NCBI GenBank assembly: GCA_017987055.1
Contig: JAGNUJ010000034.1
Span: 1-14,719, forward strand
Direction: 5' to 3'
Source of the DNA: Giesbergeria sp.
Lineage (GTDB): Bacteria > Pseudomonadota > Gammaproteobacteria > Burkholderiales > Burkholderiaceae_C
DNA length: 14,719 bases
Both the position numbers and the translations under genes were made by a program. The notes beneath the pieces are model-generated. The model made no database searches. It worked only from the letters and a program-made list of their open reading frames with translations, and was not told the origin of the DNA. Below, piece by piece: positions 9,727 through 14,719 of the stretch (within the stretch, counting starts at the first letter, position 1; each line of letters starts with the position of its first letter).

Positions 9727-10620
9727 TCACACCAACTGCGCCAGCGCCGCGCCCAGCTCGGGATAGCGAAACACAAAGCCTGCCTCTAGCGCGCGGCGCG
9801 GTTGCAGGCGCTGGCCGCCCAGCAGCAACACCGACATCTCCCCCAGCGCCAGCTGCAGCGCCCACGCCGGTGCCGGCAGGATGGCGGGGCGGTGCAGTGC
9901 AGTCGCCAACGCTTGGGTGAATTGCGCGTTGCGCACCAGCCCCGGCGCGCAGGCGTTGAAGACGCCGCTGCACTCGGTGTGGTGCAGCAAAAAATCAATC
10001 AGCGCCACTTCGTCTTGCAAGGCAATCCACGGCATCCACTGCTGGCCGCTGCCCAATCGCCCGCCCAGCCCCAAGCTGAACGGCAGGCGCAGTTTGCCCA
10101 GCATTCCCCCTGTCGGCGACAGCACCGGCGCAGTGCGCAGCAGCACCACGCGCACGCCCCATTGCCGGGCGCGCTCGGCCTCTTGTTCCCACGCGTGGCA
10201 CAGCTCGCTGCCAAAGTCAGCCGGGCCGCTGGCGCTGGCCTCGTCCAGCAGTTGCTCGCCTTGGTTGCCATACCAGCCGGTGGCAGAACCCGAGATCAAT
10301 ACCGGCGCGGGCGTGGCTTGGCGCGTCATCCAATCGACCAGCGTGCGCGTCAGCTCGATGCGGCTGTGGCGCAGCAACTGGCGGCGGCTTTGTGTCCAGC
10401 GGCGGTCGGCAATCGGGGCGCCAGCCAAGTTGATGACGGCATCGAACGCCATATCCGCTGGCAAGTCTTCTAGCTTGGCCACGCCGCGTGCGCCGCTGCA
10501 CAGCGCTGCCACGGCTGGCGGGCGGCGGCTCCAAACCCACAGTTCGTGGCCTTGTGGCTGCCAGTGTTGGCACAGGGCTTGGCCAATCAGGCCGGTGCCG
10601 CCGGTGAGGAGGATGCGCAT
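9727..10620 (-). CDS. TIGR01777 / YfcH family epimerase-like NAD(P)-binding protein
   Basis: A 297-residue extended short-chain dehydrogenase-like protein. The Rossmann motif is at the extreme N-terminus (ILLTGGTGLIG). Family hallmarks follow: DAVINLAGAPIADRRW, then VLISGSATGWYG, then MPWIALQDEVALIDFLL, and a C-terminal DUF1731 segment (LGEMSVLLLGGQRLQPRRALEAGFVF, without its last residues quoted). The substrate is unknown. The start is ATG at 10620, with GGAG 9 nt upstream; a GTG at 10665 would overlap the preceding gene and has no support. It is 38 nt downstream of the SDR gene and probably co-transcribed with it and the B12-binding regulator, so light or oxidative control is inferred. Confidence 0.9.
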   Translation of the reverse strand: MRILLTGGTGLIGQALCQHWQPQGHELWVWSRRPPAVAALCSGARGVAKLEDLPADMAFDAVINLAGAPIADRRWTQSRRQLLRHSRIELTRTLVDWMTRQATPAPVLISGSATGWYGNQGEQLLDEASASGPADFGSELCHAWEQEAERARQWGVRVVLLRTAPVLSPTGGMLGKLRLPFSLGLGGRLGSGQQWMPWIALQDEVALIDFLLHHTECSGVFNACAPGLVRNAQFTQALATALHRPAILPAPAWALQLALGEMSVLLLGGQRLQPRRALEAGFVFRYPELGAALAQLV

Positions 10621-10629
10621 GGTTTTTCT

Positions 10630-10633
10630 CTCC
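10630..10633 (-). promoter_or_regulatory. Shine-Dalgarno deciding the TIGR01777 start
   Basis: GGAG (followed by AGAAAA) on the minus strand, 9 nt before ATG at 10620. It supports this start over the in-frame GTG at 10665. Confidence 0.7.
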
Positions 10634-10658
10634 GAGTAGGTGGGTGGTAAGCGGTGGT

Positions 10659-11366
10659 TTACCACGGCAAGGCGTTGCCGTCATAAGCCCAAAAGCCGCC
10701 GGAAGTTTCTGGGCTGAGGCCGTCCAGTACCGCCAGCAAATCTGCGGCGGCGGCGCTGGCGGGCCGACCAATCTCCGCGCCGCGAAACGGGGCCGACAGG
10801 TGCGAATCGACCGTGCCCGGGTGCAACGCGGCCAACACCGCTTGGGGATGGGTGCGCGCCAGCTCGATGGCGGCGGTTTTGACCAGCATATTCAGCGCGG
10901 CTTTGGAGGTGCGGTAGCTGTACCAGCCGCCTAAGCGGTTGTCGCCGATGCTGCCGACTTTGGCCGACAGAACCGCAAACAGGCTGCGCTCTTGCCGCGC
11001 CAGCAGCGGCGCAAAGTGCGCCAGCACCAGCGCCGGGCCAAAGGTGTTGGTGGTGAAGCTGGCCATCAGGTGCGCGTAGTTCAACTGAGCCAAGCGTTTT
11101 TCGGGGCCGGCGCTGGCGCTGTGCAGCATGCCGGTGGCCACCACCAGCAAATGCAGCGGTGCAAAGTCCGGCTGGCTGCGCAGATATTGAGCGGCGGCGG
11201 CGATGCTGGCCTCCTCGGCAAAGTCGATGGGCGGCGTGCTGCCCCGGCCCAGCGCCAGCACCTGAGCGCAGCGCGGGTCGGTTTGCAGTTGTTTCACCAT
11301 CGCCGCTCCAATGGCACCGGAGGCACCAATGACCAGTGCGCGATAACCGTGGGGGAGTGATTGCAT
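10659..11366 (-). CDS. Short-chain dehydrogenase/reductase, C-factor (CsgA)-like
   Basis: A 235-residue classical SDR. The nucleotide-binding motif is GASGAIG (14-20), and the family Asn lies in the TTNTFGP segment (about 107). The catalytic residues are Y151 and K155 in YSYRTSK, with S139 as the likely Ser. The stretch VGSIGDNRLGGWYSYRTSKAA is typical of the C-factor-like group, and a TVDSHLSAPF loop follows. The substrate is unknown. Relatives often sit beside CarH/LitR-type regulators in Proteobacteria, as here. A Shine-Dalgarno-like AAAGG lies 6 nt before the ATG. The gene starts 39 nt after the regulator's stop. The spacer contains a run of eight G (eight C on the coding strand). Confidence 0.9.
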   Translation of the reverse strand: MQSLPHGYRALVIGASGAIGAAMVKQLQTDPRCAQVLALGRGSTPPIDFAEEASIAAAAQYLRSQPDFAPLHLLVVATGMLHSASAGPEKRLAQLNYAHLMASFTTNTFGPALVLAHFAPLLARQERSLFAVLSAKVGSIGDNRLGGWYSYRTSKAALNMLVKTAAIELARTHPQAVLAALHPGTVDSHLSAPFRGAEIGRPASAAAADLLAVLDGLSPETSGGFWAYDGNALPW

Positions 11367-11405
11367 GGCGTGGCCTTTGGGGGGGGTGTGTGGTGGGTTG
11401 CGTTG

Positions 11406-12494
11406 TTATTTGGTTGCTGCTGCGCTGTCGCTGCGCCACTGCGTCACCAAAGGTGCCAGCGCCGACAAGCTCTGCACCGCAGTGATCCCCAGCAGCGGTT
11501 TTTGGTACAGCGCGCTGCACGAGCCGCCCACCCACAGCGCGCGATTGGGCGGTAGTTGGCGGCGCAGTTCGCGCAGTTGGCTCAGAACGAGGGAGCCGCT
11601 TTGCAGGTTGGTAAAGCTCAGTGCTATTGCATCAGTGCGGTGGGCTTGCGCTGCTTGGACGATGTCGCTCAGCGGGGTTTGCGTGCCCAGCGAGATGCAC
11701 ACGCAGCCCTCCAGTGTCAGCAGTGCTTCGAGCATCAGCAGCCCCAAGCCGTGCGGCTCGCGTGGCAGGGTGGTCAGCAGCACACGTGGGCCTTGTAATC
11801 CCAAGGCTGGCGCTGGTGGCTGCGGCGGCATGGCCAGTGTGGCAATCGCCGAGCGCAGCACGCCAGTGATGACCTCGGTGTACAGGTGTTCTTCAAATAT
11901 CTCAAAACGCCCCTGCGCCCATGCCTCGCCGACGGCGGTGGTCAGCGGCGCGACCACCTCGGTGACGAAAGGTGCCAAGCCCATGCGCCACTGCGCTTGC
12001 AGCAGCGCGTGGCGCAGCGCCTGCGGGTCGTGCGCGGCAATGGCGTCCAGCAGGGCGGGTATTTCGGGCGTTTGCCACGCTGCCGGTAGGGCTTGTCGAG
12101 TGGCACTGGCTATGCCCGCTGTGCCCGCAGGCAAGGCGTTGTCCAGTGTTGTGCCGTCCAGCGCCAGCAAGGCTTGCAGCGCATCGTTGTCCAGTCCGAC
12201 CACCTTGCCCGGTCGCATACCCGCATCCAACAGCCGCCGAATCAGCTTGAGCTGCACCACCTGCGCGTTTGGATACAGCCGGTCGCCCGCCGCATCGCGC
12301 AGCGGTGCGGGAAAGCCATAGCGCTTCTCCCAGACGCGCAGCGTGTCTTTGGCCAAGCCGGTTTCGCGCTCGACAGCGGCAATCGACAGGGCGGCGATTT
12401 CGGGGGGCATTGCAAGGTGGCTCATGGGGCGGCAGGCGGTAAGTGGGTAAACGGTAGGCGGCAAGGCAGTGGGGATGGGTGCAGGGTTATCCAT
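11406..12494 (-). CDS. MerR-family regulator with C-terminal B12-binding domain (CarH/LitR-like photoreceptor)
   Basis: A predicted light-sensing repressor. With the ATG at 12494 it has 362 residues. An N-terminal Pro-rich tail (1-30) precedes a MerR winged helix (about 36-110: SIAAVERETGLAKDTLRVWEKRYG). A helical bundle carries W192-x9-E202-H203, the Wx9EH motif that packs against the adenosyl group in CarH. The Rossmann B12 domain has E246-P-H248-G-L-G251 (ExHxxG; H248 is the expected lower cobalt ligand), S293 and a late GG (323-324). In characterised homologues the AdoCbl form binds DNA in the dark and light releases it. The residue after W192 is Ala, where Thermus CarH has the His that caps cobalt after illumination. 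Start uncertain: TTG 12509, ATG 12425 or ATG 12410 are alternatives, and none has a clear Shine-Dalgarno. Confidence 0.9.
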   Translation of the reverse strand: MDNPAPIPTALPPTVYPLTACRPMSHLAMPPEIAALSIAAVERETGLAKDTLRVWEKRYGFPAPLRDAAGDRLYPNAQVVQLKLIRRLLDAGMRPGKVVGLDNDALQALLALDGTTLDNALPAGTAGIASATRQALPAAWQTPEIPALLDAIAAHDPQALRHALLQAQWRMGLAPFVTEVVAPLTTAVGEAWAQGRFEIFEEHLYTEVITGVLRSAIATLAMPPQPPAPALGLQGPRVLLTTLPREPHGLGLLMLEALLTLEGCVCISLGTQTPLSDIVQAAQAHRTDAIALSFTNLQSGSLVLSQLRELRRQLPPNRALWVGGSCSALYQKPLLGITAVQSLSALAPLVTQWRSDSAAATK

Positions 12495-12514
12495 CGACAG
12501 ATAGGACAAAATAA

Positions 12515-12542
12515 TTAGTATTGCGTAAATTGTCTAAGACAA
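12515..12542 (-). promoter_or_regulatory. Candidate promoter of the regulator operon
   Basis: On the minus strand, TTGTCT (12542-12537) is the -35, then a 16-bp spacer, then TACTAA (12520-12515) as the -10. The -35 is one arm of the palindrome, so a protein bound there would block this promoter. This suggests autoregulation. The expected start near 12508 favours translation from the ATG at 12494 or later. Confidence 0.45.
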
Positions 12543-12558
12543 ACATAATTTTGTCTAA
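12530..12558. promoter_or_regulatory. Predicted operator of the B12-binding regulator
   Basis: A perfect 13-bp inverted repeat, TTGTCTAAGACAA (12530-12542), is followed by a second TTGTCTAA at 12551-12558, which is 21 bp (two helical turns) from the first. A degenerate inverted half-site, AGGACAA, lies at 12503-12509. The site sits between the divergent regulator and FAD-oxidoreductase genes. CarH-type regulators bind repeated sites as tetramers, so this arrangement fits, though the exact consensus for this branch is not known to me. Confidence 0.65.
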
Positions 12559-12559
12559 T
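12530..12559 (+). promoter_or_regulatory. Candidate promoter of the FAD oxidoreductase-DUF1365 pair
   Basis: TTGTCT (12530-12535) and TCTAAT (12554-12559) are 18 bp apart. An alternative pair, TTGCGT (12521-12526) and CATAAT (12544-12549) at 17 bp, would place the palindrome in the spacer. Either way the operator overlaps the promoter. A weak Shine-Dalgarno, AGGG, lies 8 nt before the ATG at 12589. Confidence 0.45.
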
Positions 12560-12588
12560 CAATTTCACCCATTTTTAGGGCAAAGCTC

Positions 12589-13911
12589 ATGCAGGTTGCA
12601 GTGATTGGGTCAGGCGTATCGGGTTTGGCGGCGGCGCACCGCTTGCGCGGACAGGCGCGCGTGACGCTGTTTGAAGCCGGTGACTATTTTGGCGGCCACA
12701 CCCACACCGTTGATGTCAGCTTGCCCGATGCCAGCGGCCAAGTGGTGACACACGGCGTCGATACCGGCTTTTTGGTGTTCAACGAGCGCACTTACCCCGG
12801 CTTGATTGCGCTGTTTGAGGCATTGGGCGTGCCGACATCGCACTCGGATATGTCCTTCTCCGTCCAAGCGCCGGGCGCGGGCATTTTGGGCGCGCACGCG
12901 CTGGAGTGGAGCGGCTCCAACCTGCGCAGCGTGTTTGCGCAAAAGCGCAACCTGCTGCGCCCGCGCTTTTGGGGCATGTTGCAAGAGTTGCTGCGCTTTA
13001 ACCGCCTGTGCAGCGCGCTGGCCGAGTCGGGCGAAGAAGCTGCGCTGCGCCAGCCGCTGGGCGACTTTTTAGACCAGCACCGCTTTGGCGCGGCGTTTCG
13101 CGATTGGTATTTTCTGCCGATGCTGGGCTGCATTTGGAGCTGCCCAACCGATCAGATGCTGCTGTTTCCGGTCGCCACCATGATTCGTTTTTGCCACAAC
13201 CACGGGCTGCTGCAGGTGAGCGAGCGGCCGCAGTGGTTCACCGTGGCCGGCGGTGCGCGCCAGTATGTCGAGCACCTGATAGGCGGCGTGGACGACGCGC
13301 GTCTGTCCACGCCAGTGCGGCGCATCGTGCGCGACGCGGCCGGTGTCCACATCTACAGCCGCAGTCCGTCCGGTGATGAGCAAGTTGAGCGCTTTGATGC
13401 CGTGGTGATGGCTGTACACAGCGACCAAGCGCTGCGTTTGCTGGCACAACCCACCGTGCAAGAAGGCTTGGTGCTGGATGCCATCCGCTACCAGCCCAAC
13501 CGCGCCGTGCTGCACACCGACACCCACGTGCTGCCGCGCCGGCGCAGCGTGTGGGCGGCATGGAATTACGAGCGCGCCGCCAGCGCCCCCGATGTTGCGG
13601 CACGGGTGTGTTTGCACTACTGGATCAATGCCCTGCAGCCGCTGCCGTTTGCCCAGCCGGTCGTCGTCTCGCTCAACCCAGCCCGCGCCATCGACCCCGC
13701 CAAAGTGCTGGCCGAGTTTGATTACGACCACCCGGTGTTTGATATGGGAGCCATCGCCGCCCAAGCGCAAGTGCCGCAACTGCAAGGCGTGCAGAGCACC
13801 TGGTTTTGCGGCGCGTGGACGGGTTACGGCTTCCATGAAGATGGCCTGCAATCGGGCTACCGCGCCGCCGATTTGTTACTGGCGCAAATGCGCCGCCTGA
13901 AGGCTGCATGA
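12589..13911 (+). CDS. NAD/FAD-binding amine-oxidase-like oxidoreductase (COG2907 type)
   Basis: A 440-residue flavoprotein. The N-terminal FAD motif VIGSGVSGLAAAHRL (5-19) starts almost at Met1. FEAGDYFGGHTHTVDV (28-43) is the conserved acidic residue plus second FAD segment. The C-terminal WFCGAWTGYGFHEDGLQSG begins at W405 and closes the FAD site. There is no signal peptide. The substrate is not determinable here. Homologues next to DUF1365 and cyclopropane-fatty-acid-synthase-like genes have been linked to unsaturated or methylated acyl-chain modification; a related flavoprotein in Rhodobacter acts in furan fatty acid synthesis, from memory. Lipid chemistry is therefore a plausible inference. 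Its stop overlaps the next start (ATGA), and its promoter region contains the predicted regulator operator. Confidence 0.9.
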   Translation: MQVAVIGSGVSGLAAAHRLRGQARVTLFEAGDYFGGHTHTVDVSLPDASGQVVTHGVDTGFLVFNERTYPGLIALFEALGVPTSHSDMSFSVQAPGAGILGAHALEWSGSNLRSVFAQKRNLLRPRFWGMLQELLRFNRLCSALAESGEEAALRQPLGDFLDQHRFGAAFRDWYFLPMLGCIWSCPTDQMLLFPVATMIRFCHNHGLLQVSERPQWFTVAGGARQYVEHLIGGVDDARLSTPVRRIVRDAAGVHIYSRSPSGDEQVERFDAVVMAVHSDQALRLLAQPTVQEGLVLDAIRYQPNRAVLHTDTHVLPRRRSVWAAWNYERAASAPDVAARVCLHYWINALQPLPFAQPVVVSLNPARAIDPAKVLAEFDYDHPVFDMGAIAAQAQVPQLQGVQSTWFCGAWTGYGFHEDGLQSGYRAADLLLAQMRRLKAA

Positions 13912-14719
13912 ACATGCCCGCCGCTGCTGAAGCCGACAGCACGGCCGCACCGCACATCGCCTTTGGCCATGTGTGGCACACCCGGCTGCGCCCGCAGCGG
14001 CACCGTTTTATCTACCCCACCTTTTTCTTAATGCTGCCTATGCGCACCCTGCGCCAGCAGCCCGAGGCCAGCGGCGTTCTCGCCCGCAATCGGCGCGGCG
14101 CGCTGGCGTTTTATGACGCTGACCACGGCGACGGCCGCAGCGCCGAGCAAGGCGGCGCGCTGGCGTGGCTGGAAGAGCTGCTGGCGCGCGAAAACATCAC
14201 CGATGTCGATGGCGAAATCTGGCTGCACTGCTACCCGCGCGTGCTGGGCTACAGCTTCAAGCCGGTCAGCTTTTGGTACTGCCACCGCACTGACGGCAGC
14301 CTGCGCGCCATCGTCGCCGAGGTCAACAACACCTTTGGCGAGCGCCACACCTACGTGCTTGACCACCCGGTGTACGGCCAAGAGATGGCGGTGGACAAAG
14401 TGTTCCACGTCTCGCCGTTTTGTCCGGTTGAGGGCAGCTACCGCTTTCAATTTCAGCGCAGCGGCGCGCACGGTTTGCAAACCACGCGCCTGCGCATCGA
14501 CTACCACGACCAGCAAGGCGCGCTGCTGTTGACCGGTATGGGCGGGCGCTTGCAGCCGCTCACCGCTGCCAGCCGCCGCCACGCGCTGTGGCGCTATCCG
14601 CTGCTGACGCTGGCCGTTATCACCCGTATCCACTGGCACGCGCTGCTGTTGTGGATCAAGCGCGCGCCGTTTCACAGCAAACCGCCGCCGCCGGCGCAGG
14701 CCGTCACCCGCTCTTCATC
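13908..14719 (+). CDS. DUF1365 family protein, 3'-truncated by the window edge
   Basis: The frame opens with ATG at 13908, overlapping the TGA of the FAD oxidoreductase, and stays open to the last base (270 full codons). Family signatures are clear: GHVWHTRLRPQRHRFIYP (20-37, including Arg/His residues), LHCYPRVLGYSFKPVSFWYC (106-125), VAEVNNTFGERHTYVL (137-151) and DKVFHVSPF (163-171). The visible length is close to the usual 250-280 residues, so little is missing. The function is unknown. The family is repeatedly found between a COG2907 oxidoreductase and a cyclopropane-fatty-acyl-phospholipid-synthase-like methyltransferase, so involvement in lipid modification is inferred. A hydrophobic stretch near 230-250 may contact the membrane. 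Confidence 0.9.
   Translation, partial: MNMPAAAEADSTAAPHIAFGHVWHTRLRPQRHRFIYPTFFLMLPMRTLRQQPEASGVLARNRRGALAFYDADHGDGRSAEQGGALAWLEELLARENITDVDGEIWLHCYPRVLGYSFKPVSFWYCHRTDGSLRAIVAEVNNTFGERHTYVLDHPVYGQEMAVDKVFHVSPFCPVEGSYRFQFQRSGAHGLQTTRLRIDYHDQQGALLLTGMGGRLQPLTAASRRHALWRYPLLTLAVITRIHWHALLLWIKRAPFHSKPPPPAQAVTRSS

Follow-up and report, generated by a model that had tools for sequence, protein, structure and literature searches.

A class I-like B12-type LitR regulator with its own candidate inverted-repeat operator type adjoins a furan fatty acid operon in Giesbergeria sp.

B12 photoreceptors of the LitR/CarH family are known mainly from carotenoid control, as described in PMC9758184, where class I LitR proteins are described by the presence of both a B12-binding_2 and a B12-binding domain. 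For furan fatty acids, PMC7380195 describes how UfaM of Rhodobacter sphaeroides methylates cis-vaccenoyl chains, how UfaD, a protein binding flavin adenine dinucleotide (FAD)/nicotinamide adenine dinucleotide (NAD), then desaturates the methylated chain, and how UfaO, a DUF1365 protein, forms the methylfuran ring with O2. The UfaD and UfaO families were assigned in 2020 from mutants and from in vitro assays, the organisms being R. sphaeroides, where ufaD is RSP1091 and ufaO is RSP1090, and Rhodopseudomonas palustris (PMC7380195). RSP1089 (402 aa), RSP1088 (186 aa) and RSP1087 (245 aa) are annotated as a GPH symporter, a hypothetical protein and a short-chain dehydrogenase (SDR) (PMC7074977), and are described as dispensable for the furan product (PMC7380195). 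In Pseudomonas syringae, homologues of ufaD, ufaO, cfa, an SDR gene and phrB were reported in one locus under an extracytoplasmic function (ECF) sigma factor (PMC5507510). Here we describe a litR gene that stands divergently beside ufaD and ufaO in a stretch of 14,719 nucleotides of Giesbergeria sp. DNA (contig JAGNUJ010000034.1, called the window below).

We consider it likely that this LitR is a class I-like B12 photoreceptor that represses the furan-lipid operon in the dark, and that light releases the operon. Bacteria with this locus would probably switch on a lipid shield by light. The five-gene arrangement with a divergent regulator, drawn by a first-pass annotation of the window, was confirmed by Pfam and NCBIfam profile searches, in which all five genes were found in place within 9727-14719:

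9727..10665, minus strand: TIGR01777/YfcH-type extended SDR with a C-terminal DUF1731 (TIGR01777, 336.9 bits, cut-off 207)
10659..11366, minus strand: SDR1, classical short-chain dehydrogenase, 39 bp behind litR (Pfam/NCBIfam)
11406..12509, minus strand: LitR, with a MerR helix-turn-helix (HTH), a four-helix B12-binding_2 domain and a Rossmann B12-binding domain, each above its Pfam cut-off
12589..13911, plus strand: ufaD, FAD-dependent acyl desaturase family, an amine-oxidase-type flavoprotein (profile match; family as described in PMC7380195)
13908..14719, plus strand: ufaO, DUF1365 (270.7 bits), open at the contig end and continued on contig C18 (locus L104)

The TIGR01777 gene, the last in the LitR arm, overlaps the SDR1 gene, and by eye the ATG at 10620 is a likelier start for it than the GTG at 10665. 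An alternative ATG start of litR lies at 12494. The best NCBIfam model for SDR1, PRK09009, scored 195 bits, below its cut-off of 330. The ufaD and ufaO genes overlap by 4 bp.

The window is contig C76 of a genome that is 61% complete, and the DUF1365 gene is incomplete in it because the contig ends. Searching the same genome gave a second, partial DUF1365 match right where contig C18 begins, and there the stop lies a few codons on. C18 opens with 127 bases that repeat the final 127 of the window exactly, and this overlap is present in only two places in the genome, the end of C76 and the start of C18; therefore C18 very likely continues the locus. The first-pass annotation had proposed looking to the right for a cyclopropane-synthase-like gene, and the gene after ufaO on C18 is indeed the CMAS-family methylase ufaM. 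It is followed by MFS_2, DUF3833, SDR and SnoaL_2 genes, which gives the order ufaD-ufaO-ufaM-MFS_2-DUF3833-SDR-SnoaL, and beyond SnoaL_2 by an AAA/APH-type gene and a VTT-domain gene. A UfaD-type FAD oxidoreductase, a DUF1365 protein and a CMAS methylase, the set that marks a furan fatty acid operon, were thereby found together.

The claim that four of the five proteins have no firm biochemical role is outdated, since the UfaD and UfaO families have been characterised (PMC7380195), and the pathway is therefore a known one, that of furan fatty acids. The first-pass outline of a light-induced locus for acyl-chain modification or photoprotection gained support as a furan-lipid operon by comparison, while its word "uncharacterised" no longer fits UfaD and UfaO. 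We infer the enzyme reactions here from these characterised relatives. The nearest solved relative of UfaD is the amine oxidase LkcE; no solved relative of the DUF1365 protein was found by sequence. Among ten aligned UfaO relatives, H24, D72, H73, H107, H126, E138, E145, H147, H167 and H242 are invariant among many histidine and acidic residues, which would suit a metal-dependent oxygenase.

The match to the Rhodobacter set was judged on operon make-up and not on direct comparison with the R. sphaeroides UfaD and UfaO sequences, and the MFS gene appears to be disrupted here. Both points leave some room for enzymes that make another modified acyl chain (e.g. methyl-branched or cyclopropane) and not a furan fatty acid. 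We regard this as unlikely, as the UfaD-, UfaO- and UfaM-type genes form one group and share their three companions with the Rhodobacter set, and RSP1087-1089 are not needed for the furan product according to PMC7380195. The MFS gene itself, at 1463-2535 of C18, aligns to a relative piecewise and in two reading frames, and may be broken or misassembled.

The first-pass annotation had recognised the regulator as LitR/CarH-like from its motifs, and the profile scores agreed: 48.7 bits for the MerR_1 HTH (cut-off 21.6), 30.5 for B12-binding_2 (cut-off 23) and 39.1 for B12-binding (cut-off 32.1). Class II was rejected by the presence of the Rossmann B12-binding domain. Class III LitR, of Burkholderia, is described as having a C-terminus unlike known domains (PMC9758184), and was rejected since a B12-binding domain was found in the C-terminal part. 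For residue conservation, 110 LitR matches were aligned; L009, L169, L173, L178 and L227 were dropped for length or a stop and nine repeats were taken out, leaving 96 distinct sequences, with the divergent L207 kept. The adenosylcobalamin (AdoCbl) residues W131, E141, H142 and H177 (numbering of Thermus CarH) are each kept in 95 of the 96, and the window LitR has all four, as W-x9-EH and the axial histidine. The G and P of GxxxP are kept in all 96. Of the light signature GxxW, EH, GxxH and GxxxP given in PMC11796333, the window LitR carries three of the four elements. CobA/BtuR was found in 22 of 26 genomes of the genus, and in all 15 good ones, so that a supply of AdoCbl to LitR is plausible. 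Most LitRs of this clade carry a Cys-x-Cys pair within the Rossmann domain, with Cys in 87 of 105 at Thermus position 193 and in 81 of 105 at position 195; Thermus CarH lacks the pair.

This conservation bears on whether LitR could have lost B12 sensing and come under a partner photoreceptor, a short LOV or BLUF protein, as Pseudomonas class II LitR has. Class II LitR with LOV is described as controlling light-inducible genes near a ufaM cluster (PMC9758184), and in Comamonas endophytica one LitR homologue has a BLUF gene 3.2 kb away. However, both B12 domains pass the Pfam cut-offs here and 95 of 96 LitRs retain the four AdoCbl residues, which would be unexpected without cobalamin binding and therefore counts against lost B12 sensing. 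We regard a partner photoreceptor as highly improbable, and predict that LitR binds B12.

The region between litR and ufaD contains the following elements, the half-sites having been found by eye and the promoters by consensus scan:

12530..12542, between litR and ufaD: operator-like palindrome TTGTCTAAGACAA, consensus TTTGTCYWRGACAAA, core TGTCN3GACA
12503..12510: GGACAAA, the upstream (left-hand) half-site, at 33 bp as measured from the right half of the palindrome
12550..12558: TTTGTCTAA, the downstream (right-hand) half-site, at 21 bp as measured from the left half of the palindrome
12494..12521, plus strand: sigma-70-like promoter for ufaD, TCGACA-16-TAGTAT, 9/12, just upstream of the palindrome
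12508..12557, minus strand: two sigma-70-like promoters for litR, with first hexamers TAGACA in the downstream half-site and in the palindrome

The operator-like palindrome that the first-pass annotation had placed between the two arms recurs upstream of the relatives of litR. We searched up to 350 bp from the HTH start and dropped nine duplicate regions, leaving 101 distinct upstream regions. Exact TGTCN3GACA was found in 79 of the 101, against 0.6 expected from a first-order Markov model, and a form with at most one mismatch in 98, against 12.3 expected. The palindrome is therefore more than chance, and a chance origin was rejected by this excess together with the tie to LitR. In 1.68 Mb of this genome the palindrome is the sole match to the pattern TTGTCNWNGACAA; a reversed control pattern also matched in one place.

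The tie to LitR was clear in the 80 loci with a UfaD relative that we compared, which are the best 80 of 557 matches and the basis of all locus counts below. Of the 32 loci with LitR, 28 have the palindrome upstream of ufaD, against only 1 of the 48 without (p 3e-16); these counts include four loci whose ufaD is no more than 1 kb from where the contig begins (L009, L041, L058, L061). The single locus with a palindrome and no LitR, L035, is on a 7.2-kb contig that carries no LitR. The position of the palindrome shifts according to whether gpx or ufaD heads the operon: it starts 24 bp from gpx in the gpx-first loci L015, L018 and L029, and lies 24-48 bp from ufaD in L026, L035, L036, L047 and L074.

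The half-site spacings of 33 and 21 bp are close to three and two helical turns. Flanking half-sites were seen by eye in several relatives, are weak in column counts, and the position of the upstream one is far less conserved than the palindrome. The scan gave three promoter sites in total on both strands, against 0.4 expected, and as judged from this consensus scan their placement around the operator is as expected for repression of both arms. In L003, L004, L006, L007, L009, L014 and G002:C33:5097, the palindrome recurs within litR itself, at a distance of about 300-390 bp, and this further copy may have a looping or roadblock role; no second copy was found inside litR in the window.

We then asked how widely the arrangement is kept. 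Genes of the 80 loci were called by codon usage and named from Pfam, each count giving presence in the locus, and contig ends explain some absences. ufaO was present in all 80 loci, ufaM in 74, SDR2 in 68, SnoaL in 65, DUF3833 in 64, CHI3 in 64 and MFS in 58, and ufaD, ufaO and ufaM occurred together in 74. LitR lies at most 3.5 kb upstream of UfaD in 32 of the 80. SDR1 was found in 7 and the TIGR01777 gene in 6 of these 32 loci, and neither in the 48 without LitR, whereas gpx, mostly just before ufaD, was found in 9 of 32 loci with LitR and 35 of 48 without. The genes behind LitR vary: SDR with TIGR01777, photolyases, a second flavoprotein, a lipocalin or a CRP-type gene. The nearest named locus is that of Simplicispira psychrophila (UfaD 88%). 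In a light-induced pigment screen, two isolates nearest Simplicispira metamorpha (96% 16S) were reported as weakly light-inducible (PMC6739363); this says no more than that a light response is within the capacity of bacteria close to this one.

Among 26 genomes of the genus, a strong LitR match occurs in 16, and the same 16 have a strong UfaD match (E <1e-80). A family-wide survey covered 200 genomes in 115 genera; UfaD was found in 158 of them and LitR in 94, and 87 of the 94 LitR genomes also have UfaD (Fisher p 8e-6, shared ancestry ignored). The two genes are 80-2863 bp apart in 75 of these 87; nine UfaD genomes of the survey were without listed coordinates. In the class survey, UfaD (E 1e-60) was found in 73 of 232 genomes and LitR (E 1e-20) in 13, the window's genome included, and therefore the coupling looks mainly like a trait of the host family and near kin. 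Azoarcus sp. KH32C, of another order (Rhodocyclales), has a full operon with a divergent MerR gene. The first-pass annotation had allowed that the neighbourhood might not be conserved in related genomes; the locus is kept across relatives in both the genus and the family survey, and an isolated neighbourhood was rejected because the arrangement recurs in homologous loci and family genomes.

Other family members have ChrR beside ufaD. ChrR was above cut-off in 19 of the 200 genomes (61 at E 0.001) and co-occurs with LitR in 3 (Fisher p 0.0065, shared ancestry ignored). Of the 9 measurable ChrR genomes, 8 have ChrR and UfaD 0.81-0.94 kb apart and the ninth (G138) has ChrR on another contig; an ECF-like sigma gene was seen by eye between the two in one genome inspected. 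At 61% completeness, the window's genome gave no match to the ChrR model TIGR02451. Where neither LitR nor ChrR is near ufaD, we noticed by eye a different upstream block, with a core of about ACC-N3-TCAGT(C)ACAAA, in front of gpx or ufaD (e.g. L016, L020, L028 of Acidovorax, L048, L057, L075). No regulator gene was seen beside the block in these loci, and its regulator may act from elsewhere.

We infer dark repression, light induction and direct action of LitR at the palindrome from the arrangement described above. In the dark, AdoCbl-loaded class I-like LitR would bind the palindrome, with the flanking half-sites, between litR and ufaD, and would cover the core promoters so that both arms are off. 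Light would break the Co-C bond and LitR would leave the DNA, allowing transcription of ufaD-ufaO-ufaM(-CHI3)-MFS-DUF3833-SDR-SnoaL. UfaM would then methylate cis-vaccenoyl phospholipid chains, UfaD would desaturate them and UfaO would close the furan ring with O2. The resulting furan lipid is predicted to scavenge singlet oxygen or other membrane oxidants; a scavenging role of the furan lipid was reportedly put forward by Lemke in 2014. The LitR arm (SDR and TIGR01777; photolyases or lipocalin in some relatives) would be induced along with the operon.

The following observations, first on the photoreceptor and then on the coupling, weigh against this proposal. His132, the upper ligand in the light state of Thermus CarH, is present in none of the 96 distinct LitRs, position 132 being Met in 37, Ala in 28, Leu in 14, Val in 9 and another residue in 8, with Ala in the window. 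The Gly of GxxH in the light signature is Arg in the window (RxxH) and is Gly in 31 of 96 LitRs. The match to the NCBIfam CarH equivalog NF052513 was 107.2 bits, against a cut-off of 400. CobA was not found in the window's genome at its 61% completeness. In L207, a LitR beside UfaD, all four B12-contacting residues are lost; therefore the clade can lose these. L207, which also has no palindrome within one mismatch, is perhaps a B12-free derivative of LitR. Lastly, Thermus H132A is reported as mostly tetrameric after light in PMC10442372, where an earlier, contrary report is also cited.

The absence of His132 and the H132A result would both fit a LitR that binds AdoCbl but reports B12 status or the cobalt redox state, with coenzyme supply or oxidants setting the operon and photolysis leaving the oligomer intact without an upper-face histidine. 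This is doubtful, since CtMerR, with Arg at position 132, is still described as going from tetramer to monomer on light (PMC11796333), the earlier report cited in PMC10442372 found disassembly of H132A, and 22 of the 96 LitRs have a histidine elsewhere in positions 132-140 that might substitute. As the H132A reports are disputed and CtMerR is light-responsive, it is likely that LitR responds to light, perhaps with different chemistry.

As to the coupling, 7 of the 94 LitR genomes of the family are without UfaD, in a further 12 the two genes are far from each other or not on the same contig, and the genus genome G001 has a weak LitR match (2e-21) and no UfaD. No palindrome was found in the searched stretch of 4 of the 32 LitR loci, nor, even at one mismatch, in 3 of the 101 upstream regions. 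Photolyase-type genes stand near UfaD also without LitR (14 of 32 loci with LitR versus 11 of 48 without). For plasmid LitR homologues in Comamonas endophytica, Caballeronia and Eleftheria, the 6-8 kb around the gene contain no annotated ufaD, and yet the palindrome or a one-mismatch form is upstream. On the C. endophytica plasmid (L237), the LitR gene with its upstream palindrome is flanked by chemotaxis-receptor genes and has a BLUF gene nearby, and there the annotation shows no ufaD up to 8 kb away.

Such LitR homologues away from ufaD, together with the 56 of 158 UfaD genomes that use neither LitR nor ChrR, would agree with a LitR that controls its own arm only (litR-SDR-TIGR01777 and repair genes), the furan operon being driven elsewhere and the neighbourhood being inherited and not regulatory. 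We find this very unlikely, because the palindrome keeps close to whichever gene comes first in the operon, gpx or ufaD, at the distances given above, and 47 of the 48 loci without LitR are also without the palindrome.

Control of the furan-lipid operon by a light-responsive LitR would have several consequences. A B12-type regulator adjoins genes for O2-using phospholipid remodelling in 75 of the 200 sampled family genomes, and the finding gives a concrete operator sequence and a natural test of CarH-type signalling without His132. The furan enzymes have been worked out in two alphaproteobacteria (PMC7380195), and our prediction extends them to many Burkholderiales. Among the open-licence PMC papers listed by our searches (titles and abstract openings, often covering a part of the matching papers), none described furan-lipid genes under a B12-type LitR. 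The operon itself is known; what appears new from the sequences is the regulator beside it, a putative B12 repressor of class I-like type that lacks His132 and has an operator type of its own. The same protective operon stands beside a light-type LitR in some species and a singlet-oxygen-type ChrR in others. We give an even chance to the broader idea that, in many Burkholderiales, a B12 photoreceptor with changed light-state chemistry, lacking the upper histidine and having its own inverted-repeat operator, has replaced sigma-E/ChrR in front of the furan-lipid operon, so that photons raise the shield before singlet oxygen is formed.

Compared with the class I proteins CarH of Thermus thermophilus, LitR of Bacillus megaterium and CarH of Myxococcus xanthus, the window LitR shares the MerR HTH and both B12 domains, as well as W131, E141, H142, H177 and GxxxP. 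Thermus CarH is likewise divergent from photoprotective genes (crtB, phr), and a CRP-type gene lies behind LitR in L036 (8090-8800) as ldrP lies behind Thermus carH. The window LitR is 29% identical to Thermus CarH over 284 aligned positions, and lacks His132. CtMerR (PDB 8JBS) is a B12 photoreceptor that also lacks His132 and is still dissociated by light (PMC11796333), though it matched the window LitR with only 37 bits. Class I CarH operators are described as 11-bp direct repeats, nnnnTnnACAn (PMC9304148), whereas we found the inverted repeat TTTGTCYWRGACAAA here, direct repeats not having been scanned for systematically; its GACA half-site keeps the ACA of the class I repeat. The neighbours also differ, class I CarH adjoining carotenoid genes and LitR here a furan-lipid operon.

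In Pseudomonas, the pmlR1/pplR1 regulon is described as light-induced, with a LitR-family repressor near phrB, SDR, FAD oxidoreductase and ufaM genes (PMC9758184). These class II proteins have no recognisable Rossmann B12 domain and work with a LOV partner, unlike LitR here, and their site, T(G/A)TACA-N12-TGTA(C/T)A, differs from the palindrome here (PMC9758184). The sigma-E/ChrR regulon of R. sphaeroides (RSP1091-1087, with RSP2144 as ufaM) has the same enzymes and companion genes as the operon here. In Rhodobacter control by singlet oxygen runs through ChrR, whereas here LitR occupies the place on the ufaD side that chrR takes in other family members.

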